Source: Chrysophaeum taylorii
Taxonomy: Eukaryota; Sar; Pelagophyceae; Pelagomonadales; Pelagomonadaceae
Assembly (NCBI GenBank): GCA_029834535.1
Contig: JAQMWT010000676.1
Span: 1 to 27,500, forward strand
Direction of reading: 5' to 3'
Length of the DNA stretch: 27,500 bases
The translations under genes and the position numbers were made by a program. Positions 1-26,293 of the stretch are shown piece after piece. The notes under the pieces are model-generated. The model saw nothing but the letters and a program-made list of their open reading frames with translations, made no database searches and was not told where the DNA came from. Numbering within the stretch: position 1 is the first letter of the stretch; each line of letters opens with the position of its first letter.

Positions 1-1165
1 GAAGATGTAGTCAGGATGTTCCCATGCCTTTGGCACTCAGGCGTTCACTCAAACGTAACGCCTTCAATACACAATCGCCTAAGCGGCTCCACAATCTTCG
101 AATAATTCTTCACATATCGGCGGCAATAGTTGCTCATGCCAATGAAAGATCGAATCTGGGTCTTCGGGGACGCTGGGCAACGTACCGGGAATCGGCATCT
201 GCTGCAACGCTTCTAACGTCTTGGGATTCGGCTTCAAGCCTTCCGGAGTCGAAATATGTCCCAAAAACTCGATTTCATCCTTGAGGAGGTGGAACTTCGA
301 AGTTCGTCCACTATATCCTCGCTGTGCTAAATGGCACAACACTTCAAAAAAAACTTGCAAAAGTCGGTGGAGTTCATCCGATCCCATCATAATATCATCG
401 ACAAACGCGACCAAGTCCCTATACATCCATGTGGACAAATCGCTAGCCATCTGCTTACAAAGAGAGCTCCTGCTGTTTTACTCCTAGAGGCAAGCGCAAG
501 AAACTATGGGCTCCAAGTGGACTAACCATCGTAACGGCGTCCTGAGCAGCGGCGTCAAACGTAAGGTTATGATAACCCCATCGAATATCAATGCACGTCC
601 GCCAACGGCGCATGGCAAGAAAAGCCAAAGCATCATCTTGACGAATATTCGGCCAACTGTCATTGACCAGCTGATCATTGAGCTGACGCAAGTCAACTGC
701 AGCACGAAAAGCATTCGACGTCCCGGCCTCTGCTCCCTTCTTAGGCAGCATCAGTACAGGGAATCCCCACGGAGAGTTCGCCGGTCGGATGACTCCATCG
801 CGACACCACTCAGTGATCTGCTTTCTGAGACACTCGAGCTTTGCTGGCGTCAACCTATAAGGCGTCATCTTGATCGGTCGTGGGTTTGCGTCTTTAAATC
901 GTAGAGAAACCGGTGGCGAGTCCACGGGTCTCATAATCGGATCAACAGAAGCCCACGCGTATTGCACGCAGTGGCTCAACATCATCTTCGCATCATCATC
1001 CAGATGCGGGGTCTCGGAAATTCCCAGATCTCGAACAACCTTCTCGACTTCTCTTCCTTCGTCGGAATTACGACTTTCATCGCATCTCATTGTCCTTGAC
1101 GTGCTCGGGAATCTGCGGTAACGGTACACCGTCCGCATCGCGCGGCGCATCCTTCCATGGCACAT
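1..1165 (-). pseudogene. Ty3/gypsy reverse transcriptase, frameshifted, continuing past the left edge
   Basis: Reverse transcriptase motifs are spread over three frames. From about 1090 to 455: a lead-in, then 'GVIRPANSPWGFPVLMLPKKG', 'FRAAVDLRQLND', 'CIDIRWGYHNLTFD' and 'LRLPLG', which correspond to the fingers and palm of gypsy RT. From about 470 to about 190 in a second frame: FVDDIMMGS, the YxDD catalytic box with Phe in first place, then 'FHLLKDEIEFLGHISTPEGL', the usual connection motif. From about 190 to 1 in a third frame: 'RSFIGMSNYCRRYVKNYSKI', the normal segment leading to RNase H. In that part a TGA at 45-47 replaces the conserved Trp of the FEW-TPEC motif. The gene is therefore broken by two internal frame changes plus a stop, and RNase H and integrase are outside the window. 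Confidence 0.88.
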
Positions 1166-3152
1166 CGAACTTTTCTTCGTATTTGAACCTCACCTCAGGG
1201 TGGCTCTTATTGATCTTTTCACCTTTGACGCGCACATTCGGCTCGCTCCTTACTTTCGGCTCCTGTTCAGGTTCGGGATCCGGCGGAACGTCCACTTTTG
1301 ATTGTCGGGGGGGGCCAGCAGAAAAAGCATGAGCCGTCCCCGGCGCATCAGTTGGAAGCGGAAGCACAGGAACTTCTGGCGGTTCCCATTTAGTGGGATC
1401 CTGGAGATCATCCTTTGACACCCACCTAACGACACGAGTACGCGTATTTAACAGCGGAATCTCTACGTGACGAAAGGTGGTGTCGGAGATTCGCAAATAC
1501 TGCTCAATGGATCGATCTGTCGGGCTCAACGCGGTCGGCAGGACTTCACCACTTTGGCGGAAACCTCTGGTCACGGAGTTGTGCAGATCGACTGCTAAAA
1601 TCGCAAGAGTATCTGGAGGGACGACAGATGCTAAGTGTTTGAACGAGTCTGTCTTAGACAAGCTAGCCCAATCATGATCCACCGGCATCGTGAGCAACTC
1701 GGCCGTCATCTTGAGAGTTAAAGGCTGAGTGTCCGAGCGATGCGGCCCCAAACGAAGAGGAACCCGCGTCACGGTGTAAGCCGTATCGGTTGCTTCTCGG
1801 GACGAGCCAAGATTATTCAGCTGGAGAAGGTGGCGTTCATGAGCATAACCTAAAGCTGTAGCAAATTTTTGTTGCATGTTCACACATGTCTTCGGAGCCT
1901 CTTGCAAGTGCAGTGGGTGACTGGAAACCAACAATCGCACGCGAGAGCTCATCAGAGTAGGTGTGATATCATGAAAGTCGACGACGTACACGTAAGGGTG
2001 TAAGCGCGCTATATACGAAATAATGGACGGCTCCTGTTCAATCAGCCACATCATGAAGCCAGCCATCTTGCACAACTTCATCGTCCAGTTAGTGGCCGTA
2101 ACACCCTTGCCAACATCTCTGGATGTCAAGTTGCAGAGTGCGGAATGAACGCAGGGCGGAGACGCTATACACATCGACGATGACCATTCCGCTTCAGGCA
2201 AATAAGCCTTGATCAACCGGAGGGTTGAGTCATATCGTCCACAGAGCGTGTGCTGGACCACAGGTATCTTCGGAAAATTCTTCTGATGAACCTTGTTGGC
2301 AGCTGTTGACGAGTCAAGAGCAAGGACGACTCGAAACGATGTCCCGCACAACTCGTTCGCTCGTTGCAGTCCTAAAGTACTTCCTCCGGCGCCGCTGAAG
2401 AGCATCACAACCTTGCGATACGTGACCGGCACCCAGTGGACCTTTTCAAACCTTCGGCGAATCTCGCATTCTGCAACTTCTCGGCATTTCGTTTCCTCCT
2501 CGTCAGTTCGTCGGTCGAAATCGCCGTTACCGAGCGATGCTCGACGAGAGCTCTTCTTCTTATCGGCAGAAGGAGACGCCTTCTGCACTGAGCTCAAAAG
2601 CATCAGTTCAGGAGCCGCATTGCCTTGAGTAAGATGGCTTGCGACCGAAACAGTGAATGATAGGTTAGCCTTGTTAGATTCGGCTTCACCATCCTTCGTT
2701 AAATCGTCGACCGTCACAGCATTCAGCTCGTCATCAAAACGAACAATATCGCCCAAAGCAAGGACCTCACCTTGAGTGATCACGGTCGGCACATCCTGGG
2801 TATAAGATATCGCCACTCGAGCTGCGAACTTATCATGATCCTCAGGAGAAGAACACATTCCTTCGACTACCCCGAGTTGCTCGTACCCAGAAGACGTAGC
2901 AACGAAAACTTGCCCAGTTTCCACGGGCTCCGAAAGAGCGACTGGCACGCAGTAGGTGCGCCCAGGCTCGACCTTCATCGTGCGCGCAGCATAGGCTTTC
3001 ACTTCATAAGCATCGCTGTTCGAACTTTGAGAAGGCGTAACTGGAGGAACTCCCCAAGTCGTCGAAGCTCCCGCTCGTTTCGGCGGTGAACGCTGGAGGT
3101 CTTCAATCTTGCACGAGCGAGCGTAGACTCGGTTCTCAACTGTGCTCAGGCT
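1077..3152 (-). CDS. Pol segment: beta domain plus C5-cytosine DNA methyltransferase-like domain
   Basis: The frame is open from just after the TAA at 3153 to a stop at 1077, in phase with the protease. Numbering from the GTG at 3002, residues about 5-95 (ending near GEVLALGDIVRF) resemble the dUTPase-like beta domain that follows the protease in many gypsy elements. Residues about 197-478 (near 2415-1569) match a C5-cytosine methyltransferase, which transfers a methyl group from SAM to cytosine in DNA. Motif I is LFSGAGGSTLGLQ (201-213), motif II ends in D230, and motif IV is ASPPCVHS with the catalytic-type Cys284. A motif VIII-like stretch is SSRVRLLVS (352-360). Motifs IX and X resemble 'LTLKMTAELLTMP' and 'VVPPDTLAILA'. 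The ENV of motif VI is not visible between motifs IV and VIII. A Pro/Glu/Lys-rich linker leads to the reverse transcriptase, which continues in another frame near 1090. Confidence 0.83.
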   Translation of the reverse strand, partial: SLSTVENRVYARSCKIEDLQRSPPKRAGASTTWGVPPVTPSQSSNSDAYEVKAYAARTMKVEPGRTYCVPVALSEPVETGQVFVATSSGYEQLGVVEGMCSSPEDHDKFAARVAISYTQDVPTVITQGEVLALGDIVRFDDELNAVTVDDLTKDGEAESNKANLSFTVSVASHLTQGNAAPELMLLSSVQKASPSADKKKSSRRASLGNGDFDRRTDEEETKCREVAECEIRRRFEKVHWVPVTYRKVVMLFSGAGGSTLGLQRANELCGTSFRVVLALDSSTAANKVHQKNFPKIPVVQHTLCGRYDSTLRLIKAYLPEAEWSSSMCIASPPCVHSALCNLTSRDVGKGVTATNWTMKLCKMAGFMMWLIEQEPSIISYIARLHPYVYVVDFHDITPTLMSSRVRLLVSSHPLHLQEAPKTCVNMQQKFATALGYAHERHLLQLNNLGSSREATDTAYTVTRVPLRLGPHRSDTQPLTLKMTAELLTMPVDHDWASLSKTDSFKHLASVVPPDTLAILAVDLHNSVTRGFRQSGEVLPTALSPTDRSIEQYLRISDTTFRHVEIPLLNTRTRVVRWVSKDDLQDPTKWEPPEVPVLPLPTDAPGTAHAFSAGPPRQSKVDVPPDPEPEQEPKVRSEPNVRVKGEKINKSHPEVRFKYEEKFDVPWKDAPRDADGVPLPQIPEHVKDNEMR

Positions 3153-4259
3153 TTATTGCATCGCATGATGCTGTTGCCCATAAACCTGAACTACCACGGG
3201 ATTGCTCTCGTCATAAGTTGTTCTGAACGTCAAAATCGGAGAATCTACTCGTCGATCCTGCACCTTTAACTTCTTACGCCCGTAAGCGACTCGTGTGCGT
3301 AGAAACGCAATGCGATTCCGCGGGTAATCCACTATGGCTCCAAACACCCGAATATCGCGCGCTCCCAGCAAAAATAGATGATTAGTATCGGCCACAATAG
3401 CAACAACTGGAACGGCAACGTCGTCCGCAAGCGCAATCCGCAATGCAACCCATTGGTGGATAGTCGTTTTGTTCAGTCCTGACCCATACAAAGTGCGCTC
3501 GACTGGAAGATCGCCCTGGTCAAGGATGATGCTATCCTTTTCCAGTTTTTCAACCATCCCCCGACAAATATAAGAGACATCAGCCATCCCATCCACGCCT
3601 AAAGTCGTTGCAAACTTCGGCCCGTCTCGTCGTCTATAAATATGACCCACTATAAACGTAAGGGTACCAGGGTCCAGGCAACCGATGGTGATGAGGTCTT
3701 GCTCGATCCTTTTCCCATCGCTCGGCGACAGTGCAGTGTGATGACATCGTATCTCCGGTTTCGCATCGCCCGGAATCTGCATCGTCACCGCTGCTATATC
3801 TGGCGTACTACATCTCGCCGCGGAATCTATATTGGCGCTCGCCGCTTCGGCTGCTTCTTCATTCCCCAGTTTCGCTGACAACAAATTCTGACACTTCTCA
3901 ATCGGAGGCACATATATCTCATCCTTTATCTCTTCTGGTAATCGTTTCTCGTCCAACAAATCGGACATTCCCGTCAACTTCTCCTCCATCGGCGCCACTG
4001 TGGTCTGTTCAGCTGCGACCAAAACTGTATCGGCTAGAACATCGGCTAAAACGGTCTCGGGGGGCCCCGTAGGAAAAGAAGACGTCGTCCTCGACGTCAA
4101 CTCACAAGGTCTAACGTCATCATCGTAAAGTGCCCTGCAGGACATGCACATTGACGAATGGGGGGACACTGGAACCTGCGGCATGGGCTCGTCAGTCTCC
4201 GAATCTGAGTCTTCCCAGTAGTGCGGAGAATCCCAAGTAGCATCTGACATTGCTTCCAT
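3153..4259 (-). CDS. Retropepsin-like aspartic protease region of gypsy Pol
   Basis: This 368-codon frame starts with ATG at 4259 immediately after the Gag TAG and in the same phase. Residues 1-180 are acidic and unrecognised. Residues about 195-330 look like a retropepsin: 'TLGVDGMADVSYI' at 219-231 occupies the place of the usual L-V-D-T/S-G-A-D-V-S-F-I flap strand, and 'LLGARDIRVFGAIVDY' at 297-312 matches the family's I-L-G-x-D-x-L ... A-x-I-D-Y element. The catalytic triplet reads D-G-M instead of D-T/S-G, so activity is doubtful. The frame closes with TAA at 3153-3155, after which the same frame stays open into the beta domain and methyltransferase. An alternative is a non-catalytic, protease-derived domain. 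Confidence 0.7.
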   Translation of the reverse strand: MEAMSDATWDSPHYWEDSDSETDEPMPQVPVSPHSSMCMSCRALYDDDVRPCELTSRTTSSFPTGPPETVLADVLADTVLVAAEQTTVAPMEEKLTGMSDLLDEKRLPEEIKDEIYVPPIEKCQNLLSAKLGNEEAAEAASANIDSAARCSTPDIAAVTMQIPGDAKPEIRCHHTALSPSDGKRIEQDLITIGCLDPGTLTFIVGHIYRRRDGPKFATTLGVDGMADVSYICRGMVEKLEKDSIILDQGDLPVERTLYGSGLNKTTIHQWVALRIALADDVAVPVVAIVADTNHLFLLGARDIRVFGAIVDYPRNRIAFLRTRVAYGRKKLKVQDRRVDSPILTFRTTYDESNPVVVQVYGQQHHAMQ

Positions 4260-5648
4260 CTACGATGTAGAAGGCCACCGAACGATCCGAGCGTTGGCGG
4301 TATGTTGCTCCTGTTGCAAACGATGGCTGCTCGTCACAGCGACATCGGCAACATCATTGGAGACTCGGGCAGGGCGCGCCGTCGGGTAAAAGACAACCCC
4401 CGACATTGGCGGCGCGTCGCATAAAGATTGGAACGCGAAAGATGCGCTCGAATGTCCCGAACTATCCTGATATCTGCCTCCGTCATACTCGTCATCGTGA
4501 TGTCGATGACGTCGGCGCCGGCGCGTATGGCGACTAGAGCTCCGGTGACGGCAAGGACTCGGGCTGTCTTGAGTAGTATGGGCTTTTCGATCAGGGCTCT
4601 GGCTTCGATGTCGGCGCGACGATAGTCTAGAAGGTGATCGTCCGTCTCGCTGTCGTGTAGAAAACGACGTAGTATCCTTGATGCTTCTGACCTCGCTCAC
4701 CATGGTCGCCATTGTGGTTCCAAGATCGGTGAGGGCCGTTTGAATTTCATTAGAAGGCTCCGATCCGTGCGTGGCGTTCGCATTAGATGCATCATCACGC
4801 TTTGCCCAATCGGACCGCGATATGGGCTGCTTCTTCTGCTTACGAACTCGCTTCCACATTGCACAGTAGTAACGATCCGGATCGCGATTGCAAACTACGC
4901 GATTTCCGTGTTCATCTTCATCATAGGTGGTCCAGAAGAACCCACAGTGCGGGCACGTTCTCTTGCCCCACAGAAAAGGATCTCGTAAAATCAGCGGATC
5001 CGTATTCCCAGACGGTTTATCCGCATCTTGCTTGGCTTGTTGATCGGAGGCCATAGCTCGAACTCCCCGCCCTCGCGGCTGTTTATTCGATTTCGGATTA
5101 GGTGGGGCTTGGTCCTTCTCCTCCTCCATCAACTTTCGTAAGTCGTTCTCGAGCCGCGTAATAAGCGCTACCATCGACTTAAAAGTCACATAACTATCAG
5201 GATGTCCGCTCCTCATAGTCCGCACACGGGCCCTCAACTCCTTGGACGTCAATCCACTGATAAGCTGGTCGAGGATATCGACATCATCCATCGTGCGGCT
5301 GGACACGGAACAAAACTCCAAGGCTTCAGATTGGAATCTGGTACAATAGGTTTGGACGTGCCGCTCCCCAGACTTCTTCGGAACTGAAACCTGGGTGACC
5401 TTCCGCAGCTTGTCAAGCAGCTCCTGCTGCGTGCGCGGAGGTCGGCAAGTCGATCTAAAATAATCCAAAATCTTGTCGCAATACGTCTTGTTAAGACGAC
5501 GGATACGACGAACCGAGACTCCATGCTCTTTATCGTCAGTATCTAATTTCAAGTAAAACGACGGACCGTGTGGTAGCTCATCGCAGAGCTCCTCGTATTT
5601 CTGCAAGTGTTCCTCAAAAATTGGTGCAACGGTGTCCCGTAGATGCAA
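4260..5648 (-). CDS. Gag core with atypical Cys finger and Arg/Ser-rich tail
   Basis: This 462-codon frame begins without its own ATG and continues the Gag region from upstream in another frame. Residues about 5-175 have the helical, charged character of Ty3/gypsy Gag cores, including a segment like 'YCTRFQSEALEF ... LISGLTSKEL' where many Gag proteins have 'F..L....' and 'GL....'. Residues 232-262 form C-X2-C-X17-C-X8-C, with cysteines at 232, 235, 253 and 262, in place of the usual C-X2-C-X4-H-X4-C knuckle; this could bind zinc. Residues about 335-395 are rich in Arg, Ser and His, like an RS-type RNA-binding tail. The frame ends in TAG at 4260-4262, and the next base starts the ATG of the protease frame, in the same phase. 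That layout would suit readthrough or stop-start reinitiation. Confidence 0.75.
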   Translation of the reverse strand: MHLRDTVAPIFEEHLQKYEELCDELPHGPSFYLKLDTDDKEHGVSVRRIRRLNKTYCDKILDYFRSTCRPPRTQQELLDKLRKVTQVSVPKKSGERHVQTYCTRFQSEALEFCSVSSRTMDDVDILDQLISGLTSKELRARVRTMRSGHPDSYVTFKSMVALITRLENDLRKLMEEEKDQAPPNPKSNKQPRGRGVRAMASDQQAKQDADKPSGNTDPLILRDPFLWGKRTCPHCGFFWTTYDEDEHGNRVVCNRDPDRYYCAMWKRVRKQKKQPISRSDWAKRDDASNANATHGSEPSNEIQTALTDLGTTMATMVSEVRSIKDTTSFSTRQRDGRSPSRLSSRRHRSQSPDRKAHTTQDSPSPCRHRSSSRHTRRRRRHRHHDDEYDGGRYQDSSGHSSASFAFQSLCDAPPMSGVVFYPTARPARVSNDVADVAVTSSHRLQQEQHTANARIVRWPSTS

Positions 5649-6475
5649 GGTAGTAAGTAACGTAATTTCTCGACCGAGTAACGGTCATCTGCTAAAGTAT
5701 GCATCATCGCCGCCGAATCCAAATTAAATTGCCGTTGGTCTCGGCCGTCGATGACGAGTTTGAAGTTATCAGGCTTCAAACTGGAAGTGGGTCGATGGGA
5801 TCGGCTCAAGTTGCCCTTTTCGAAGGCGTTGGCAACCGTCTGCGACATTCCCCGCGACAATTCCCGTAAAATTTTCGTACTTTCATTCTCAATGTCCGCC
5901 CTACCCTCATTCTCCGTATCGACTCGGGGCGGAGGTTCATTCCCCGTTTCAGTGTTCCTTTCCGGTTCAGGCGGCCTCACGGGCGTTTCCGGTTCGGGTC
6001 GACTCACGGGTCGTTCGCGGCTACTCTCCCGACGCGTACGTTCGGCTAACAATTCATCTCGTTCACGACGAAATCGTTCAACCTCTTCGCGTAGGGTCTT
6101 CGAGGTCTCGGTCTCTTGTTGTAATGCATCATTGAGCATATCAACTTCTCGTCGAGCCGCTTCCTCTTTCGCTTCAGCCCTTTCACGAGCAAAAAGCTCA
6201 GCTAATCGTTCATTTTCGCGACGTCTCCGCTCGAGGTCTTCACGAAGTCGACTTCGGGCTGCAGATCCGCGCTCAATAGTAACACGCTCGCCACGACCCG
6301 GAGTCGTTGGACTCAACGGCGAAAAAATGGCAGTATCCGGAGGCACATCAGGGGGTACGTCAGCAACGTCGACTGCCTCGGCCTCTCTTAATTCACCTTC
6401 CTCGCGGCCTATCTCAGGGGCGGCGGGAAGAACTGGAGGAGATTCTTCCTCACGCACGTCTGCGTTTATCTCCAT
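5549..6475 (-). CDS. Gag N-terminal region with long coiled coil (retrotransposon)
   Basis: This open frame starts with ATG at 6475 and runs 308 codons. Residues about 1-70 are acidic and proline-rich. Residues about 75-150 are dense in Arg, Glu and Leu with heptad-like spacing, typical of a coiled coil that could drive Gag assembly. A Pro/Glu/Arg linker follows. Residues from about 230 (PTSSLKPDNFKLVIDG) resemble the start of a gypsy Gag core. The last residues are out of frame: the Gag core continues in the neighbouring frame from about 5650, so a one-base indel or a frameshift site lies near 5650. The methionine start is the first in the frame and lies after a non-coding stretch that could hold the leader. 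The role is inferred from position upstream of the Gag core and protease. Confidence 0.7.
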   Translation of the reverse strand: MEINADVREEESPPVLPAAPEIGREEGELREAEAVDVADVPPDVPPDTAIFSPLSPTTPGRGERVTIERGSAARSRLREDLERRRRENERLAELFARERAEAKEEAARREVDMLNDALQQETETSKTLREEVERFRRERDELLAERTRRESSRERPVSRPEPETPVRPPEPERNTETGNEPPPRVDTENEGRADIENESTKILRELSRGMSQTVANAFEKGNLSRSHRPTSSLKPDNFKLVIDGRDQRQFNLDSAAMMHTLADDRYSVEKLRYLLPCIYGTPLHQFLRNTCRNTRSSAMSYHTVRRFT

Positions 6476-7235
6476 ACTGTATCAAATTTCGATCAAGAAT
6501 CTCGAAACACGTCCGGATCCGATTACTCGAAGTAATTCACGTTGATTCCAACAACGCTATCTGTCGCTGTAAAAACAGCACTCACGGAATTCCAATCCGC
6601 TGGCAATTCAAAAATGCCCGTGGGTAGCGATCCCACTCGCTAAACAGCTTCCACCGTTCAGCTATACCAAAATCAATTCCCGGGAGAATGCGCTGCGATT
6701 TCCAACTCGCACGCGTGTTCGTCGTCACTCGGATCGTACGAACACAAACAACGTTCGCGTATATTCTCAACGCAAACCGGTCCAATGGAACTCCGTGTGC
6801 TTGATCAGGGCGCACGTACAAATCCGGACCTCGTAATACAACACGTACGGCAGCACTCGCTCGTCGGCGACCGATGTAGTCGCACGATCTCGTGTACTCC
6901 ACCACGTATGGCGGCACAGAAAAAAAAAAACCTTCCCGACCCCCGGGTGACAAAGGGGGTACTCACCGACTCGTCCTAGACCTCACTGAACGAGGAAAAC
7001 ACGGACGCGGGGTCGGATAAGCTCGCCACACACCTTGCTCACGCTCACCAAGCCTCTCGACAAGATGGAGAGATGGAATATGATAGCAAGGAAACTACAA
7101 GAATACAGCAAGAATGCTTCTCACAAAAGAGAGGTATGATGTCACTAAAAAGATCGGGAAAGGTGTCCCGTTGAACGGGTATCAAGCCTCGAGAGATTTG
7201 GGGTAAGCCTTAGCGATCAGGAGTTGCCGCCACAC
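6476..7235. other. Leader / possible 5' LTR region of the gypsy element, then unassigned sequence
   Basis: No convincing gene was seen. By position, the stretch up to about 6960 should hold the primer-binding site and 5' LTR of the minus-strand gypsy element. Candidate minus-strand TGG starts for a primer-binding site occur near 6550 and 6593, but no tRNA match could be established and the partner LTR is outside the window. An A11-12 run lies near 6920. From about 7000 to 7235 nothing was recognised. Confidence 0.35.
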
Positions 7236-7732: not shown

Positions 7733-7856
7733 GAACTTACTGGGGTTAGCGATTGGGACTAGGTGAACTTACTGGGACCAGGTGAACTTACTGGGACCAG
7801 GTGAACTTACTGGGGTTAGAGATTGGGACTAGGTGAACTTACTGGCCTGCACTTGT
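7511..7856 (+). repeat. AGGTGAACTTACTGG minisatellite, first locus
   Basis: The core AGGTGAACTTACTGG recurs in two blocks (about 7511-7615 and 7733-7856). Spacers alternate between GACC (19-base period) and a longer form containing GAGATTGGGACT (about 32 bases). The last 57 bases (7800-7856) reappear with one difference at 16678-16734, both ending in GGCCTGCACTTGT. A unique spacer with no clear coding content separates the blocks. Confidence 0.9.
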
Positions 7857-9160
7857 GGAATATTAAGCTCGACTCATTTCTTCGACAGCATGAGTTCGAA
7901 CGCTCAAAAGTCGATACTTGTCTTTATATCAATTGGGATCGATATATCAACCAATGGGTATTACTATCCGTTTCAGTCGACGACCTATTGATCACTGGTA
8001 CCAACACTGCGAAAATTGCGTCTCTTCGCACCGCTCTGGAGACCGAATATGGCAAGGGTACATGGCATGACAACATCCGATCCTTTCTTGGCATCGATGT
8101 CCACTACAATGTCTCCGCTGGCCATCTCACTATGAATGTTGCAGCGAAGATCAACCAGATGCTTGCTGAGCATAAGCTCAATCTACATAGCCTAGACGTC
8201 CCCTATTCGGACATCCTTGTCCAAAAACCTTCTATTAAACTTTTCTCTGACTTGGCTACTACCTTAGATGTATTACGCCAAAACCCCCCTTTCTATTGTG
8301 GCACCAGCATTTACTTGTCTGTCACATGTCGGCCGGACATCACCACCTTGTGCAACAAATGCTGCAAAGGGATGCACAACCCTGACCAAACCCATCTTCT
8401 GCACTTATATGTTTGACTTCGCTATTTAAAGGGCACTCCGAGTGATTCCCTTGACTATTCATCCAACAGCCCGTCTATCACCCCCTTTATTCAGCATCTG
8501 ACCGTTCACCATCCTGAATTGCATCTTCGTTCACCTATTATCTGTTTCACTGATGCAAGCTTTGCCGATCGTTCTGACCCTCGCTTACGATCCAATTCTG
8601 GTGTATGTATATTCGTCTCTGGCAGTCTCGTATTTTGGTCTAGCAAACGCCAGACTCTCACTGCCAAGAGCACCATGGAAGCTGAACTCATCGCCGCCAG
8701 CGCAGCTGCTGATGAATGTCACTGGTTCTACAAGTTTTTCTCCTCCCACCCCTATCTGTTTTCGTGTGATCAAGCTCACGCTATCCCCTTGCTTATTGAC
8801 AACGCTAGCGCACTACATGTCGCTAATCATCCTAAAGTCAGTGCTCCTTCTCGTCATATCAACTTACGGGAATTTCGCATTCGTGACTACCAAGCTAACG
8901 CGATCATTAGACCTCTCTGGTGTCCTACTCTCTACCAGGTCGCTGATCATTTTTCGAAGCTCTTACCACGCAATTTATTTCACAAGTTCAAAAACGCCTA
9001 CGGTGTTCACTCAACCTCCTCCTCACCGCCATCTTATCAAGTTACTCTTCCACCGTACGACTCTGTCCAGAGCACTCTCTACATTCTTGTCGATGGTAAG
9101 ACGCTTCCCGCTTAGTTTGATCCAGATTTCGCTCCCCACGTTCAATCTGTGAGGGCGTAG
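7857..9160 (+). pseudogene. Ty1/copia pol fragment: reverse transcriptase C-terminus and RNase H
   Basis: The frame starts abruptly after the minisatellite with 'WNIKLDSFLRQHEF', which fits the middle of copia RT, followed by 'SKVDTCLYI' and the catalytic box 'SVDDLLITG'. The RT-RNase H connection 'CRPDITTLCNKC' and 'LRYLKGT' follow. RNase H shows 'CFTDASFAD', 'SGSLVFWSSKRQTLTAKS' and 'STMEAELIAASAAADE', the typical copia metal-binding and KxQ..ST.EAE elements, then 'PLLIDNASALHVANHP' and 'HINLREFRIRD'. A TGA at 8414-8416 breaks the frame just before LRYLKGT. A TAG at 9113-9115 comes before the apparent ancestral end at 9158-9160: the residues between them (PDFAPH, VQS) are matched at 20076-20130 on the other strand. 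Gag, protease, integrase and the RT N-terminus are missing. Confidence 0.9.
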
Positions 9161-9175
9161 AGATAGAAAATCCGA
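9136..9175 (+). other. Copia 3' end: GAGGGCGTA motif and purine-rich tract
   Basis: GAGGGCGTAGAGATAGAAAA follows the end of the copia pol. It is purine-rich, as expected for the plus-strand primer tract next to a 3' LTR. Nearly the same sequence, including the preceding TTCAATCTG, lies on the minus strand at 20059-20100. Shorter related forms lie at 22797, 24403 and 26217 on the minus strand. Confidence 0.65.
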
Positions 9176-9243
9176 ACTAGGGTTAGTACCCCCTGTTATA
9201 GGGTTAGTTCACTTAACTTTGCCACCTTTGATTTAAGAAAACG

Positions 9244-9333
9244 CTGTGTTATTCACACCGGCTGTCCTCGATTAAGAGACAGATTCGAGGACAGACTACC
9301 ACTGTTCTCACGCTCGGCTGAAGGGTAACACAG
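9244..9333. repeat. Nested inverted repeat (hairpin)
   Basis: An outer pair CTGTGTTA (9244-9251) and TAACACAG (9326-9333) encloses an inner perfect 10-base pair CTGTCCTCGA (9262-9271) and TCGAGGACAG (9285-9294) with a 13-base loop. It lies about 85 bases after the copia 3' end. Confidence 0.75.
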
Positions 9334-9354
9334 TTGTGATTACTATTCTCTAGT

Positions 9355-12295: not shown

Positions 12296-12990
12296 CGAAA
12301 GGGGAAAATCCCCGTCCCCGCACCTTCCCCGCGCCCCGCACCTTCCCCGTCCCCGCACTTTCTCTCCCCGCGCCTTCCTCGCTCCCCGCACCTTCCCCGT
12401 CCCCGCACCTTCCCCGTCCCCGCACCTTCCCTCCCCGCACCCCCCCCGTTCCCCGCACCTTCCCTCCCCGCACCTTCCCCGTCCCCCGCACCTTCCCTCC
12501 CCGCACCTTCCCCGCTCCTTGCACCTTCCCCGTCCCCGCGACCTCCTCGTCCCCGTGACCTCCCTGCTCCCCGCACCTCCCTCTTCCCCGCGATCTCCCC
12601 GTCCTCGCACCTTCCCCTTTCCCCGCGACTTCGTCGCTCCCCGCACTCTCCTCGTCCTCGCGCTCTCCCCGTCCTCGCACCCTCCTCGTCCCTGCACCTT
12701 CCCCGACCTCGCACCTTCCTCTTCCCCGCGATGTCCCCGGTCCCCGCACCTTCCTCTTCCTCGCGACATCCCTGTCCTCGCACCTTCCCCTTTCCCCGCG
12801 ATCTCCCCGTCCTCGCACTCTCCTCGTCCCCGCATCTTCCCCAACCTCGCAACTTCCTCTTCCCCGCGATATCCCCGCCCCCCGCACATTCCTCTTCCTC
12901 GCGACCTCCCCGTCCTCGCACTCTCCTCGTCCCCGCACCTGCCCCATCCCCGCACCTTCCTCTTACTCCGCGGCTTCCCCGCTTTCCGAG
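12296..12990. repeat. C-rich minisatellite array 1 (CCCCGCACCTTCCCCGTC)
   Basis: About 690 bases of tandem CCCCGCACCTTCCCCGTC-like units, more diverged toward the right, where CTTCCTC and CGCGATCTC variants dominate. The complementary strand is G-rich with closely spaced G4 runs. Long open frames through it are only repetitive Gly/Arg or Pro sequence and are not genes. Confidence 0.93.
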
Positions 12991-13046
12991 GATCCTCTTT
13001 CCTCGCGAAGCCACACCCTCTCTCAGGGCGGTTTGCGAGTAAACCC

Positions 13047-13063
13047 GGGGGGGGGGGGGGGGG
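13047..13063. repeat. G17 homopolymer
   Basis: Seventeen consecutive G residues between ACCC and TCCGCGG. The length may be unreliable in the assembly. Confidence 0.9.
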
Positions 13064-13215
13064 TCCGCGGGAGTTCCTCTCGCCCAAGGACTCCTTAACC
13101 CGGGACCACCGCGTACTCTGATCCCCCCTACCCCCCCATGCTTTCTCTCTCGTGCGTCCCGCCGGTTCAGTCCTGTAAACGTGCAGCTCTAAAAGGACAA
13201 GTACCTTAAGAGGCA

Positions 13216-13490
13216 TAAGGGGAACGGGGAAAGTCGCGGGGACGGGGAAGAGAAGGTGCGGGGAGCGAGGAAGGTGCGGGGAAAGGAAGGTGCGGGGGCG
13301 GGGAATGTGCGGGGTCGGGGAAGGCGCGGGGAGCGGGGAAGGTGCGGGGAGGGAAGGCGCGGGGACGGGGAAAGTGCGGGGGCGGGGAAAGTGCGGGGAC
13401 GGGGAAAGTACGGGGACGGGGATGTGGCGGGGAGCGGGGAAGGTGCGGGGACGGGGAAGGTGCGGGGACGGGGTGGTCGCGGGCAAAAAG
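13216..13490. repeat. G-rich minisatellite array 2, inverted partner of array 3
   Basis: Tandem GGGGAAGGTGCGGGGACG-like units. Reading right from AAGGGGAACGGGGAAAG at 13217, it follows the reverse complement of 16656 leftwards almost base for base for about 65 bases. The same unit order then continues with a few differences, including a rare GGCGGGGAGCGGGG variant in both. It is therefore one arm of an inverted repeat. Confidence 0.92.
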
Positions 13491-13870
13491 GAAGGTGTAG
13501 CGGATACCCGTTTCTCCCGCCCCTCTAGGCCGGACCGGCTGTCACAACGCGGCCTTTCAAATAAACCTGCGGTTTTTCGAAGGCGCAAATCGGTCGATGA
13601 GTTTCGATGAGCTTCGTTCGGGTCTCTGAGGGGTCCTCTAGGGCTGTGCTTAAAAGTACACGTGACTCCGGGGGAGCCCGTATGGCTTATGCACACTATG
13701 CCTGAAGTTGGCGACAGTGTATCGAGTCCAACTTCGGCGCCCTACGTCCCGCCAGCGGTCGGAAGCGACTCAAGTCGGACCGCAGAGCGGCCCCGAAACG
13801 CGAGGGGACTGTTCCTTTTCCTCTCGCCACGCTTTTCGTATGCCGAGGTCACCACCAGGGTCATACATAT
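13491..13870. other. Gene-free stretch between the G-rich array and the DDE remnant
   Basis: Nothing coding was recognised on either strand. It may be the 3' flank of the transposon that carries the DDE remnant. Confidence 0.4.
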
Positions 13871-16239: not shown

Positions 16240-16656
16240 CGATGTCCTCGTCCCCGCGCCTTCCTCGCTCCCCGCACCTTCCCCGCCCCCGCGCCTTCCC
16301 CGTCCCCGCACCTTCCCCGCCCCCGCACCTTCCCCGTCCCCGCGCCTTCCCCGCTCCCCGCCATATCCCCGTCCCCGCACCTTCCTCGTCCCCGCACCTT
16401 CCCTCCCCGCACCTTCCCCGCTCCCCGCGCCTTCCCCGTCCCCGCACCTTCCCCGCCCCCGCACCTTCCTCGTCCCCGCGCCTTCCTCGTCCCCGCACCT
16501 TCCCCGTCCCCGCACCTTCCCTCCCCGCACCTTCCCCGCTCCCCGCGCCTTCCCCGTCCCCGCACCTTCCCCGTCCCCGCACCTTCCCTTCCCCGCACCT
16601 TCCTCGCTCCCCGCACCTTCTCTTCCCCGTCCCCGCGACTTTCCCCGTTCCCCTTG
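16240..16656. repeat. C-rich minisatellite array 3, inverted partner of array 2
   Basis: Tandem CCCCGCACCTTCCCCGTC-like units, more regular than array 1. Its right end, CTTTCCCCGTTCCCCTT at 16640-16656, is the exact inverted counterpart of the left end of array 2. Confidence 0.93.
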
Positions 16657-17005: not shown

Positions 17006-19573
17006 ATGGACGAAGCGGCGAGCGGCGAGCGGCCGGCGGACGCCGCGACGGCGCCGACGGACGACGCTCTCCGCGCGTCGCGTCTCGCGCGCCGCGAAGT
17101 TGTCGAGGCGCATCGAAAGAATAAGGGCACGGCGGAGGCGTACGACCTCTGGGTGAGGCAGTGGCATGCTTGGTGTTACGCGAGGCCGGGCGACGTCGTC
17201 TGCGGCATGACGATGCCCGTCGACAAGCAGGTGTACTCCGGAGCCGCGGTGCCGTCAACGGTCGAGCTCTGGCTCGCCGCGTTCGTAACGGTTCGGCCGA
17301 AGCTGAAGAAGGGCAAGCCTGTGCCCGGCACGGGCGGCGCCGGAGGGGGGTCGGGATCGAATCCGTGCGCCAGGCCATCAAGGCGGTCACCGACTTGCAA
17401 GCAGCTCAGAGGCTCGACGATGAGTTCCGCGCGGAACTGGAAGGCGTCCCCGCGCCTCGCGCTGGTGGCCTGGTACGCCTCGCGTTTTGGCCGATCAGCC
17501 GTCGTCTTGACAGCGTCTCGTCCTCGCAGCTCAAAGCCATTCTTGAGGAGCACGCGCACCAGACGGCAATGCGGCGCGAGGAGCTCTGCGGAGATAGGGC
17601 CTCGGGTCGTGACATCAACGGCGACTACGACGACAAGCAAAAGTACCAGTTGAGCACGATCGGGCTGTTCGAGGACTCCGCTCGCCCCCACAAGCTTGCC
17701 GAAAAGCAGGCAATGCTCATGCGCCTGTCGCAGCTGCTTCGCGATTCGCTTTCGTTTCGAGGGGACGACGCGAGGAAACTCCAGCTGGCCGACGTATTTC
17801 TGGCGTATGCAATGGCGAGAGAGGGACCGCAACCGTGCCGGGTAGTTGTCTTTGCGCTCAACAACGGAAAATCCAACCTCGACGGCAAGGTTATGTTAAG
17901 CGCGTCGATGCGACACGCGACGAAGCCCGAGCTGTGCCTGCAATTCCACTTGGCGCTGTCGTTCTTCGAATTGTACGTCGTATTTAAGGTGGACGTGCCC
18001 CGGTGGCGACCCAAACGCGACGAGGAGGGTCGCCTCCATCGAGATTTTTATTCCTTCCACGTGCTCCCGGGCTGCAAATGTCGCACCGGCGATTTTAACG
18101 TGCGCACAAGCCTCACGCCGCAGACGATGTCCAACCAATGCAGCTGGATGTTCGCGAACATTCGCAACCTGCTGGTGAATGCCCCGAAGAAAGTCCACCT
18201 CAATCGCGGGAGGTCGTTGCGAGACGGGATTGCCAGCGGCGTCTCGGAGCAGCAAGTCGGGCGCGCCGGGAATTATCGTGGATACACGGCGCTGAACCGA
18301 AGCTACCTCACCGACCTGCCGTGGGATATGATCCGGCATACAGCCGGGTTCCCGACGCGATCCGGATACTTCTTCTTGTTACGTGCGTTGGTCCAACCTC
18401 CCGAGCCGTTGGTGAAGAAGGTTTTCGCGACATTGCTGGACTCATACTACGAGTGGCTCGAATCGCCCGACTTCAATAAGGACGACCTCGACGTCGCCAC
18501 GAAGCAGTTTGTCGAGGTCGTCGAGCATCTTGCTGTCGTGCTCTGCCAGGACCTCGCGGTCCTTTACGGGAAAATGAAGCACTTCCACATCTTCTCTCGC
18601 GCACCTTTCAACGACGACACCTACGGCTTCTTAACATTCCGGCAGGAGCTCCTCCAGGCAATGACGGACCATGGCGCCAACCAGCTGCAGCGCACTACCG
18701 AGGCAGCGCAGGAACGGGGAGATGAGAAGTGCGCCGCCTTTGCTCGCGAGGTGCTTGGTTCGGTCGCGACGATGCTGGAGCAGCACAAGGTCACAGCCTC
18801 GGCCAACGGTCCACCTGCGCAGCCAATCCAGATGCGATTAAGCGGAACGCCTGCTAGGCACATCAGCGAGATCCACGACCAAATATGTGGCAATGACGCG
18901 CCGCGGCGTCTCACCGGCGCGATATCGGACCCCCCTGCGACCACTCCCGCTTTGTTTCCAGAGACACCGCCACGGGCTTCGGCCGCCGACTCAAACGACG
19001 CCTCAGACGACGCCCTTCTGTTTGGTCAACAAAGACTGGTTGTGTCGGATAAATCGACCTGGTCGGTTGACCCCCCCCGCGCTTCCAAACTTCGCTCTTG
19101 CGACGAAGCTCGCCTCATGCCCAGCGACCATAGGTGAGTTGGCCGAACAGTACTTCCGCGGCGTCGGCGGCGGTGCTCCTCTCAAGTACCTTGACGAGTA
19201 CTACGGTCCCATCAGACGCCCGGGTACCGGCAAAACGGGTTTCTCCTGGCGCAGCGCCAGAGCGTGCGATCCGAGAAGCAAAAGCCGCAAGTTTAACACG
19301 GCGTACGAGAAGTGCAAGCCTATCTTCGACTATCTCGAAAAGCACGGCGAGCAGCAGGGTGTCGCACTGCTCGAGGCTCGTGTCAACGCGCGTCTGCAAC
19401 CCGGTCAAGAATCCAACTGGAAGGCCATCTGTGATCTCCTCCCGGAGATTATCAAGGAACTCCGTCCCGAATCCTTCGAAAAGAAAAGCAAGCGTGCTCA
19501 GGTGGCGCGAGCCAAGTCGCGGGATGCCAAGCGCCAGCGCGTGGTGCCGCACGCGTCGAGCACGAACGACTAA
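17006..19573 (+). CDS. Crypton-like tyrosine recombinase (Ndc10_II type) with GCR1_C-type domain; two frame breaks
   Basis: The first ATG of the coding block is at 17006. The N-terminal part (17006-17350) has 'AYDLWVRQWHAWC', the core-binding helix typical of fungal Ndc10/GCR1-like proteins. The frame then shifts at a G6 run (17345-17350); one more G would restore it. The next 1.7 kb encode 'VRQAIKAVTDLQAAQ', then 'FRGDDARKLQLADVF' with the box I Arg near 17760. His at 18196, 'GVSEQQVGRAGNY', and Tyr at 18304 in 'NRSYLTDLP' follow, giving the R..H..R..Y catalytic pattern of Crypton recombinases. A second break is at a C8 run (19071-19078). Beyond it, 'LAEQYFRGVGG', 'LDEYYG' and 'RKFNTAYEKC' match the GCR1_C DNA-binding domain, ending at TAA 19571-19573. 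Cryptons integrate circular DNA by tyrosine recombination. A spliced or domesticated host gene is the alternative. Confidence 0.78.
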
Positions 19574-24028: not shown

Positions 24029-26293
24029 TTATTGAGCGTTGGACCTGAGCATCGTCCGCATAGTCTGGAACCGAGCTGTGCAGTTGGTTTGCGTTGTCTC
24101 GTCTGCTACATCAATGAGCTGGCTGGTGTAGCTGGCCGTTGTGGTCTTATCTTTCGTCTTGTCGTCCAATAGAGACTGCGAGATAGTACTCGTTGCTATG
24201 TGCGAGACTTTAAGTAGCTGTTGAGCAGCTGTTGAGAGCTGAGTGCTCTCTTGTCTGGCAGTTTCTGTTGCTTTGGAGTTCCAGAGACATGATTGTGCAG
24301 CTTCAAACGTCTTGGCATTGGGGATTGCCATAAAGTAACTCGTAAGTTCAAAGTCGGACGTCGGAAAATGCATCGAAAGGCTTGTGAGGTCACCAATTGA
24401 AATACGCCCTCGTAAGGCGTGCGCGACGTGGTGCGGGCGCGAGCGATTTATGTTGGTGATCTGATGGTCGTGAGATACGTTGCGGCGCGGAGTGTCGGTG
24501 GAAATGACGAGTGTCTTGGTGTTAAAGGCGGTGACGCGGAGAGCATCGAAAAGCGTGTCATGCTCCAAGAGCGAAAGCGCGTGATGCGGGTGGTCCGAAG
24601 TCAGTGCCAAAAGGAGTGTGGCTCGCGGCTGACCTGTTTGCAAGGTAGGGCAGATGGGCACGTGAGCTGAGATCCCGTGGTGGAGAGTATCCGGCCTGAA
24701 ATGCTTGGGGTCCAGTGCGGGAATTCGAAAAGAGGGGTCGCCGAAGGAGAGTGCAGTAGAACCAAGGGCAATGTAAGTCCTGCTGGGTGCATCCTCAATA
24801 GCGGAGATGCTGAGACCAGAGCGGTGAGTGCCGTAGTGACTAGGGTTTCCCTTGGGCGTGTAGAGCATTCGAAGGTGCGGGCATGTGACATGCGTCCTCA
24901 AATGAGGAGTGACGTGCTGAGCGATATGACGCTTTTGAGGGAGGCAACGTACGTGACTTGGGTGCATGTTTGTGGTGGAGCCGGTAGCTGGCGTGGAACG
25001 TTTGTCGTGCATTCCAGTGATGCGAAAATGCTTACAGAAGTGGTTCAGTTGGAGCGAGTCTGTGCATAGTGTGCGGAGAATGTTTCCTGAGAGCGCAACG
25101 TCGATTTTTCGGAGGCAGCGCAAGCGTGTGGCGTCCAGAAGAGAGCTATGCAAGGGGACACACAGGACCGAAGTGGTCGCAATGGAATCGTGCATAGTTT
25201 GCGGTTGATCGGGTCGTTCAGAACTCTCGAAATCTGTGTCTGTTACTGCAGCCACGGGGAAAGGTTTCCTGAGGCTTGGTCGCGGTGAGACATAAGGATC
25301 GGCAGCCGAAAGGATAGCGTCCTCTGACCGAAAGTTGGGGAGCGGGTGATCAGGTGTTGCGACTGGTGTTCGTGCAGAGACATCCATCAAATCGTTACAT
25401 GGTGGTCGCAGATGGGTCCATGCAACCTGCTGAGCAGTGTCATCCAGTGCATCCGACCGAGAAGGTGGATGGTGGGTGCAGCAGCAAGCGCCGGTGAGCG
25501 GCAGTGCGCGCCTGTCTTCGAGGAGGGGAGGCGGCGAGGCGGAACCAGCTTCGAAGTGATCGGGAGCTGCTGATCGAGAGATATCGAACGAGGCGGGAAT
25601 GCCTTGTGAATCTGAGCTGATACCTGCAGGTGCGGTGAGTGCCTGCGAGTATGTTGACCGTGGGACCGTCGACAGCGTGTCTTGTCCTTGTGGGTTCGGC
25701 ATTGCGGGGTCATTGGTGGTGCTTGGATCAGGCGGCTGATCTGGAATGGTCGAGGAGACCATATTCGAGACTTGTGAAGTGGGTCTTGTTTCTTCGCTGT
25801 ATGCATCATACCAGGGGACTGAATCAGAGGGGATGTTGTCAGTGGCCTGCGGCTCTTGCGCCCGGTGCATGGGATACGACGGAGCTTTAGAGTCTTGGGT
25901 GTGGTTGCCATAGTCGATGTAGGCGCAATACTCGGGAACATCTCGAGGTGTCTTGGTCTTCGACTTGTCGAAAGTGGGAACGAGATGGCTGGTGTTTCTT
26001 CGACAAGACTGCTTCCTGGGCCGTTGTGCCCGAAGAGAGAAGAAGCCATTATACATGTCTTGGCAGCATGATGGTGAGCATGACCATCTGGCAAAGAGCT
26101 GTCTTTTGATAGTTCGGAACTTGTCGACTCTTGATGTGGGTGGTCTTGATTTTTGGTGGGGCTTTGCACGTGGTGATCGTCGCTGGTGGTAGGGGTACGG
26201 TCGCCGGTGTTGAATGTACGCCCTCGCAACTCGGACGTGGGGATGTGGTCGAGTTGGAATGAACCAGGTGGCTGATAAGGCGAGCGGGCTCAA
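24029..26293 (-). CDS. Unrecognised large protein, His/Ser/Thr/Pro-rich with a helical C-terminus
   Basis: A frame of 754 codons, open without an ATG at its left edge (it opens at a TTG; the first ATG is about codon 80). Most of it is polar and probably disordered. The last 110 residues differ: 'FELTSYFMAIPNAKTFEAAQ' followed by 'QLSTAAQQLLKVSHIATSTI' reads as amphipathic helices and ends in 'RFQTMRTMLRS'. That part looks like a genuine folded or coiled segment. GAGGGCGTA occurs within it (24403-24411), where it encodes LRGR. No polymerase, integrase or protease motif was seen. A structural (Gag-like) protein is possible but is only a guess. Confidence 0.45.
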   Translation of the reverse strand: MSPLALSATWFIPTRPHPHVRVARAYIQHRRPYPYHQRRSPRAKPHQKSRPPTSRVDKFRTIKRQLFARWSCSPSCCQDMYNGFFSLRAQRPRKQSCRRNTSHLVPTFDKSKTKTPRDVPEYCAYIDYGNHTQDSKAPSYPMHRAQEPQATDNIPSDSVPWYDAYSEETRPTSQVSNMVSSTIPDQPPDPSTTNDPAMPNPQGQDTLSTVPRSTYSQALTAPAGISSDSQGIPASFDISRSAAPDHFEAGSASPPPLLEDRRALPLTGACCCTHHPPSRSDALDDTAQQVAWTHLRPPCNDLMDVSARTPVATPDHPLPNFRSEDAILSAADPYVSPRPSLRKPFPVAAVTDTDFESSERPDQPQTMHDSIATTSVLCVPLHSSLLDATRLRCLRKIDVALSGNILRTLCTDSLQLNHFCKHFRITGMHDKRSTPATGSTTNMHPSHVRCLPQKRHIAQHVTPHLRTHVTCPHLRMLYTPKGNPSHYGTHRSGLSISAIEDAPSRTYIALGSTALSFGDPSFRIPALDPKHFRPDTLHHGISAHVPICPTLQTGQPRATLLLALTSDHPHHALSLLEHDTLFDALRVTAFNTKTLVISTDTPRRNVSHDHQITNINRSRPHHVAHALRGRISIGDLTSLSMHFPTSDFELTSYFMAIPNAKTFEAAQSCLWNSKATETARQESTQLSTAAQQLLKVSHIATSTISQSLLDDKTKDKTTTASYTSQLIDVADETTQTNCTARFQTMRTMLRSNAQ

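Follow-up and report, generated by a model that had tools for sequence, protein, structure and literature searches.

A C5-cytosine methyltransferase-like domain in the Pol of a Ty3/gypsy element of the pelagophyte Chrysophaeum taylorii

Can a retrotransposon carry a DNA methyltransferase (MTase) as a regular part of its Pol polyprotein, and what would the element gain from it? This question is raised by the first 27,500 nucleotides of contig JAQMWT010000676.1 (GenBank assembly GCA_029834535.1) of the pelagophyte alga Chrysophaeum taylorii, a stretch that we call the window over its whole length. At its start, on the minus strand, lies a copy of a Ty3/gypsy long terminal repeat (LTR) element, in which a preliminary description, made from the letters alone, had recognized cytosine MTase motifs between protease and reverse transcriptase (RT). 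Our analysis supports the view that the C5-MTase-like domain is an integral and conserved part of the element's Pol. Sequence comparisons confirm that a predicted, divergent C5-MTase domain is encoded at positions 1563-2462 (minus strand), with a protease-like region on one side and the RT on the other. The domain and its motifs are located as follows (copy counts are explained below).

1563..2462, minus strand: C5-cytosine MTase-like domain (PF00145, E=3e-6; phrog_116, E=4.5e-8; alignment with Dnmt2 hits and structure model)
2382..2402, minus strand: motif I, LFSGAGG (F22-G27 invariant, 25/25 copies in register)
2151..2162, minus strand: motif IV, SPPC, with the candidate catalytic cysteine (Cys in 25/25 copies)
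2031..2039, minus strand: EQE, candidate motif VI replacing ENV, at the end of a predicted strand (E142 in 24/25 copies)
1935..1943, minus strand: motif VIII, R.R (both Arg in 25/25 copies)
1614..1631, minus strand: motif X-like ASVVPP replacing GNSVPP (Dnmt2 alignment, copy comparison)

The family assignment proposed in the preliminary description is borne out by profile searches. The domain on its own (300 aa) matches PF00145 with 27.3 bits, above the curated cut-off of 22, and the full open reading frame (ORF) at 1077-3002 (minus strand) still exceeds that cut-off (24 bits, E=3e-5). The corresponding domain of another copy, L032 (loci are numbered with the prefix L), reaches 28.6 bits. The PHROGs library returns phrog_116, annotated as 'DNA methyltransferase', and TIGR00675 (dcm) is matched at E=0.0011, with 18.7 bits far below the model's cut-off of 100.65. 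The profile matches reach no further than roughly residues 16-77 (motifs I-II); evidence for the later motifs comes from the alignment with Dnmt2, the structure model, and their persistence across copies. Among the word-sharing, length-fitting candidates that were scored in the protein database (a scope that misses long polyproteins), no relative of the MTase ORF was found at E<=0.001; viral contigs likewise yielded no relatives of the Gypsy MTase, the Gypsy RT, or the Copia MTase introduced below.

The motifs were compared across 25 of 26 copies, leaving out L010 with its 7-residue insertion. Besides the residues listed above, the Pro preceding the motif IV Cys is kept in 24/25 copies, the leading Gln of motif VIII (QxRxR) is not seen, and changes at the remaining motif positions are each confined to single copies. 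When six copies are aligned with 31 hits of the host Dnmt2 (L018 and L007, each holding a stop, are omitted from the alignments), SPPC and R.R show no variation, and the C-terminal block is in register. A structure model whose alignment includes the Dnmt2 hits (pTM 0.70, mean pLDDT 63.5) resembles C5-MTases over 207-254 residues among the 50 matches listed for it. Its strand 136-142 ends in E142, where motif VI is expected, and its middle region is poorly predicted. A model built from ten element sequences alone, without Dnmt2, reached a pLDDT of 31 and was discarded.

That the domain is integral is also borne out by the rest of the genome, of which we searched 70.8 Mb in 697 contigs (the genome report gives 71 Mbp and 702 contigs; PMC10366177). 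Out of 1,543 first-look candidates, at least 69 MTase-carrying loci were scored (70-100% identity). They fall into two subfamilies: A, which resembles the window copy (83-100%), and B (70-74%). The full-length relatives with the same domain order that had been called for do exist: L029 is open over at least 2,890 codons, running from the protease-like region through the MTase, RVT_1, RNase H, and an integrase zinc finger to rve, and frames of 3,063 and 3,067 codons are listed on its contig. The Pfam order RVT_1, RT_RNaseH, H2C2, rve, together with LTR pairs, identifies the element as Ty3/gypsy. For its aspartic protease we found only a VDGMAD-like motif, with no Pfam match in the window copy or L029. 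LTR pairs are 99.7%, 98.2%, and 95.2% identical, which suggests that members of the element moved recently. Had other copies lacked the domain, it could have been dismissed as a chance insertion. We therefore turned to the 88 scored RT loci and read five of them upstream, picked because they were absent from the MTase-locus list. Four carry the MTase region, all with the frame broken beside or within it (L047 among them), and the fifth retains its C-terminal part only, beside an insertion. The domain is thus a regular part of the element.

Substitution ratios indicate that the domain is under purifying selection. Pairwise dN/dS is 0.19 in subfamily A (19 copies, 171 pairs) and 0.26 in subfamily B (6 copies, 15 pairs), given within subfamilies only as dS between A and B is saturated. 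For subfamily A, the window copy was joined by 18 loci, all of L010-L028 but L010; L018 and L034 are kept with their stop codons skipped. By stretch, pN/pS in subfamily A is 0.19 for the MTase vs 0.40 and 0.41 for protease-side stretches, 0.62 for the linker, and 0.41 for the RT part, where the copy sets differ between stretches and L009 and L036 (the window itself), L031 (identical to L010), L018 and L034 (stops), and hits below 95% coverage are omitted.

Unlike some other copies, in which the frame stays open throughout Pol, the window copy is broken. It consists of the following parts.

1..7234, minus strand: Ty3/gypsy LTR element, subfamily A copy (5' end at 7234; 3' end lost at the contig end; frames broken)
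6905..7234, minus strand: 5' LTR (start by homology; inner end approximate, read from the sequence; TGG... primer-site-like sequence next)
5549..6475, minus strand: gag-like ORF (assigned by position; no domain above cut-off)
4260..5648, minus strand: gag-like ORF (assigned by position; no family match)
3153..4259, minus strand: ORF with protease-like region (motifs VDGMAD and FLLGARD only; no Pfam match)
12..1051, minus strand: RT region, broken frames (81-91% identity to L029 Pol)

It is 97% identical in DNA to L031 over 7234-686, with the LTR start matched at 7234-7200, and tblastn with the L029 Pol finds pieces of it from 4496 down to 12. The protease-like ORF is in the MTase frame, as first described, but a stop codon lies between them, and the RT region (1051-12), homologous to the element's Pol, is in another frame, the junction showing a net gain of 4 bases. 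The sequence next to the LTR starts with TGG like a primer site; with the patterns tried, no matching tRNA end was found. Elsewhere, L044, L046, and L047 have each lost a net one base where MTase and RT join, and in five RT loci the open frame measures exactly 1,233 codons, which looks like the spread of a sublineage whose MTase and RT lie in separate frames. In L048, the MTase region is interrupted by an insertion resembling LTR-element sequence and flanked by a short direct repeat.

The same genome harbors a second MTase-carrying family, whose 3' end also lies in the window, as does a weak match to its MTase domain.

7853..9353, plus strand: 3' end of the MTase-carrying Ty1/copia family (RT, RNase H; LTR 9158-9353; DNA 91% to L039 and 90% to the L038 LTR)
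24614..25114, minus strand: weak relative of the Copia MTase domain (tblastn 29% identity, E=3e-6; no Pfam match)

A genome search with PF00145 gave 57 matches, two of which are host genes; seven of the other 55 were opened (L003-L008 and the match on C96, L038) and all belong to one family, whose MTase region reads PCQ in 7/7 and ENV in 6/7. Its pN/pS is 0.22 (21 pairs, excluding the 29% match in the window). In L038 the MTase follows a DGGAS protease-like motif and precedes rve (17.6 bits, below its cut-off); in L039, of the same family, RT, RNase H, and an LTR follow. Judged from these domains, the family is Ty1/copia. The piece at 7853-9353 shows protein identities of 93% and 89% and an RVT_2 match of 48.9 bits. 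The match at 24614-25114, which sits in a 754-codon open frame without Pfam match, may stem from a third, divergent family or be a relative in decay. Within the same kind of candidate set as before (word-sharing, length-fitting, long polyproteins missed), the protein database holds no relative of the Copia domain at E<=0.01. A common origin of the two MTases found no support (hhalign E=0.1, non-matching columns). Since no specific likeness links them, two separate captures into a similar Pol slot are the simplest reading of the sequences, though not a proven one.

How, then, may the domain serve the Gypsy element? The explanation we favor, at a probability of roughly one half, starts from what is observed: the position in Pol, the copy number, the purifying selection, and the conserved S-adenosylmethionine (SAM)-binding motif and candidate catalytic cysteine. 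A Ty3/gypsy lineage in C. taylorii would have captured a divergent C5-MTase gene, which became fixed between protease and RT and was kept by selection. Its place in Pol suggests release together with the RT and action inside the particle or on freshly made cDNA or RNA. Most likely, the MTase would be made with the RT and carried in the element particle, where, as the element replicates, it would methylate nucleic acid of the element itself, either cDNA or an RNA such as the primer tRNA. That it is packaged and catalytically active, what it acts on, and what the element gains are presumed.

Several findings weigh against this reading. Motif VI is unclear (IEQE instead of ENV, the Dnmt2 ENV block aligning to a gap) and motif X degenerate, and the domain may therefore be a poor catalyst or none. 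The structure model, with Dnmt2 hits in its alignment, is not independent evidence, and the full frame of L029 scores 18.6 bits against PF00145, below the cut-off. In subfamily B the RT part (pN/pS 0.085) is held more tightly than the MTase (0.25). Motif sites are not significantly more conserved than the others (variable 7/22 vs 108/277, p=0.65; fixed A-B differences 0/22 vs 34/277, p=0.15), and several copies have frame breaks on one or both MTase flanks. Moreover, a lasting CpG mark should lower the CpG content, yet CpG observed/expected is 1.21-1.32 in Gypsy-copy stretches vs 1.26-1.46 in host-gene stretches, i.e., there is no depletion, and C/T differences at CpG vs other sites are slightly raised in A (0.051 vs 0.041) and lowered in B (0.028 vs 0.050). 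Lasting CpG self-methylation is therefore not supported, no consistent footprint of it being visible, and DNA methylation for camouflage or copy-number control stays a suggestion; any mark would be transient, non-CpG, on RNA, or well repaired. In Copia-family DNA (L038, L039), CpG observed/expected is lower (1.02-1.05) and TG/CA higher than in Gypsy copies or in stretches with host genes. Given the altered motif VI, a rival is the idea that the MTase fold is kept without catalysis, as a nucleic-acid- or SAM-binding module (e.g., serving the RT as a cofactor or titrating out factors of host methylation). The ASVVPP replacement, the poorly predicted middle region, and the missing CpG footprint fit this idea as well, but it leaves the candidate catalytic Cys and both motif VIII Arg in 25/25 copies unaccounted for, as well as the Glu that ends the predicted strand just where motif VI is expected; we regard it as possible though doubtful.

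The host's own enzymes bear on whether RNA rather than DNA (e.g., primer tRNA or genomic RNA) is the substrate, as for Dnmt2 with tRNA. The genome, which has 84 matches to the light-harvesting family (fucoxanthin type by appearance), encodes Dnmt2 (L001; 1g55, E=3.9e-39) and DNMT5 (L002; 7r76, E=1.9e-128). In hhalign, the Gypsy domain favors the former (E=2e-4, probability 45) over the latter (E=0.53), and DNMT5 as a source gave no match. The methyltransferases among the weak matches in a solved-structure search are Dnmt2 (E=0.13-0.35, an unrelated GGA1 chain being level at 0.32), and DNMT2 fills Foldseek ranks 1-6 for the model, whose alignment contains Dnmt2. With the host Dnmt2 the domain shares 27-28% identity around motifs I-IV, SPPC, and R.R. 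It differs in reaching an E of only 2e-4 in single comparisons, in not keeping ENV, and in reading AYT at the place of the Dnmt2-specific CFT motif. This weak leaning, together with the lack of a DNA footprint, makes an RNA substrate a real rival, yet the AYT, the Dnmt2 sequences in the model's alignment, and the VIA structure comparison (HhaI first, Dnmt2 within 1 Z) keep it on the unlikely side. More improbable still is the combined proposal that the Gypsy and Copia superfamilies independently captured different C5-MTases behind the protease, the Gypsy one being a Dnmt2-derived RNA/tRNA MTase acting on the element's primer or genome RNA, and that this convergence reflects a shared replication step gaining from cytosine methylation. 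That the MTase copies have been domesticated and now serve the alga as host genes would suit the stronger purifying selection on the subfamily A MTase than on the neighboring stretches measured; it is made very improbable by the copies examined, which sit in LTR elements whose Pol is open and whose LTRs are nearly identical. Finally, chance resemblance or a one-off insertion in the window copy, which the restriction of profile matches to motifs I-II might suggest, is refuted by copy number (at least 69 loci) and conservation (purifying selection), with three profile libraries concurring, and we give it next to no weight.

Two further features of the window are a 658-aa ORF at 17161-19137 (plus strand) with NDC10_II (62 bits), a domain known from Crypton-like elements, and G+C-rich minisatellite arrays at 12300-13500 and 16240-16650, repeated in both orientations.

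MTase-carrying retrotransposons are already known, and the present elements are another variant, in pelagophyte Gypsy and Copia. As the preliminary description noted, cytosine-MTase elements occur in dinoflagellates and a charophyte: PMC5890265 describes Dnmt-bearing LINE and DIRS elements in Symbiodinium and a Dnmt3-bearing Gypsy in Klebsormidium, and reports de novo CG methylation by retrotransposon DNMTs. Citing that work, PMC12344493 assigns members of DNMT3 to 'LTR Copia and DIRS' elements. Antiviral roles have been proposed for transposon methylases in PMC6338049, which also mentions adenine- and cytosine-methylase-encoding Ty3/gypsy and DIRS elements in, among others, stramenopiles (the passage leaves the kind unstated); stramenopiles can accordingly be called new hosts only with reservation. 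In the open-access literature (subscription journals and preprints lie outside it), we found no description of a C5-MTase in a pelagophyte Gypsy or Copia element. The host lies outside the two lineages detailed in PMC5890265. That the capture is probably fungal, as first proposed, is not supported, the Dnmt2 gene L001 being 100% identical to CTAYLR_008533 of the pelagophyte C. taylorii. What is gained is a case, beyond those dinoflagellate and charophyte ones, of a 71-Mb stramenopile genome, DNMT5 among its genes, that houses both Gypsy and Copia elements, each with a C5-MTase-like domain of its own kind, so that the benefit a retrotransposon draws from such an enzyme becomes testable in one small alga.

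Among known systems, the orchid Gypsy with an N6-methyladenosine (m6A) demethylase (PMC9289625) likewise added a nucleic-acid modification enzyme, though another enzyme in another host. SymbioDIRS-Dnmt3 and SymbioLINE-Dnmt of Symbiodinium, as portrayed in PMC5890265, are also high-copy retrotransposon-encoded cytosine MTases of an alga, but their carriers are DIRS and LINE, and the Copia of that genome is described there without a DNMT domain, whereas here a Copia family has an MTase-like one. Closest is KnitGypsy-Dnmt3 of Klebsormidium nitens, which the same source presents as a cytosine MTase in a Gypsy Pol polyprotein with several copies and a Ka/Ks below 0.2. Its MTase is of the Dnmt3 type and its host a charophyte, whereas our host is a stramenopile, the nearest sequence found is Dnmt2 (a weak likeness, in comparisons with the host's Dnmt2 and DNMT5 and with solved structures), and a second superfamily in the C. 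taylorii genome also bears an MTase-like domain.
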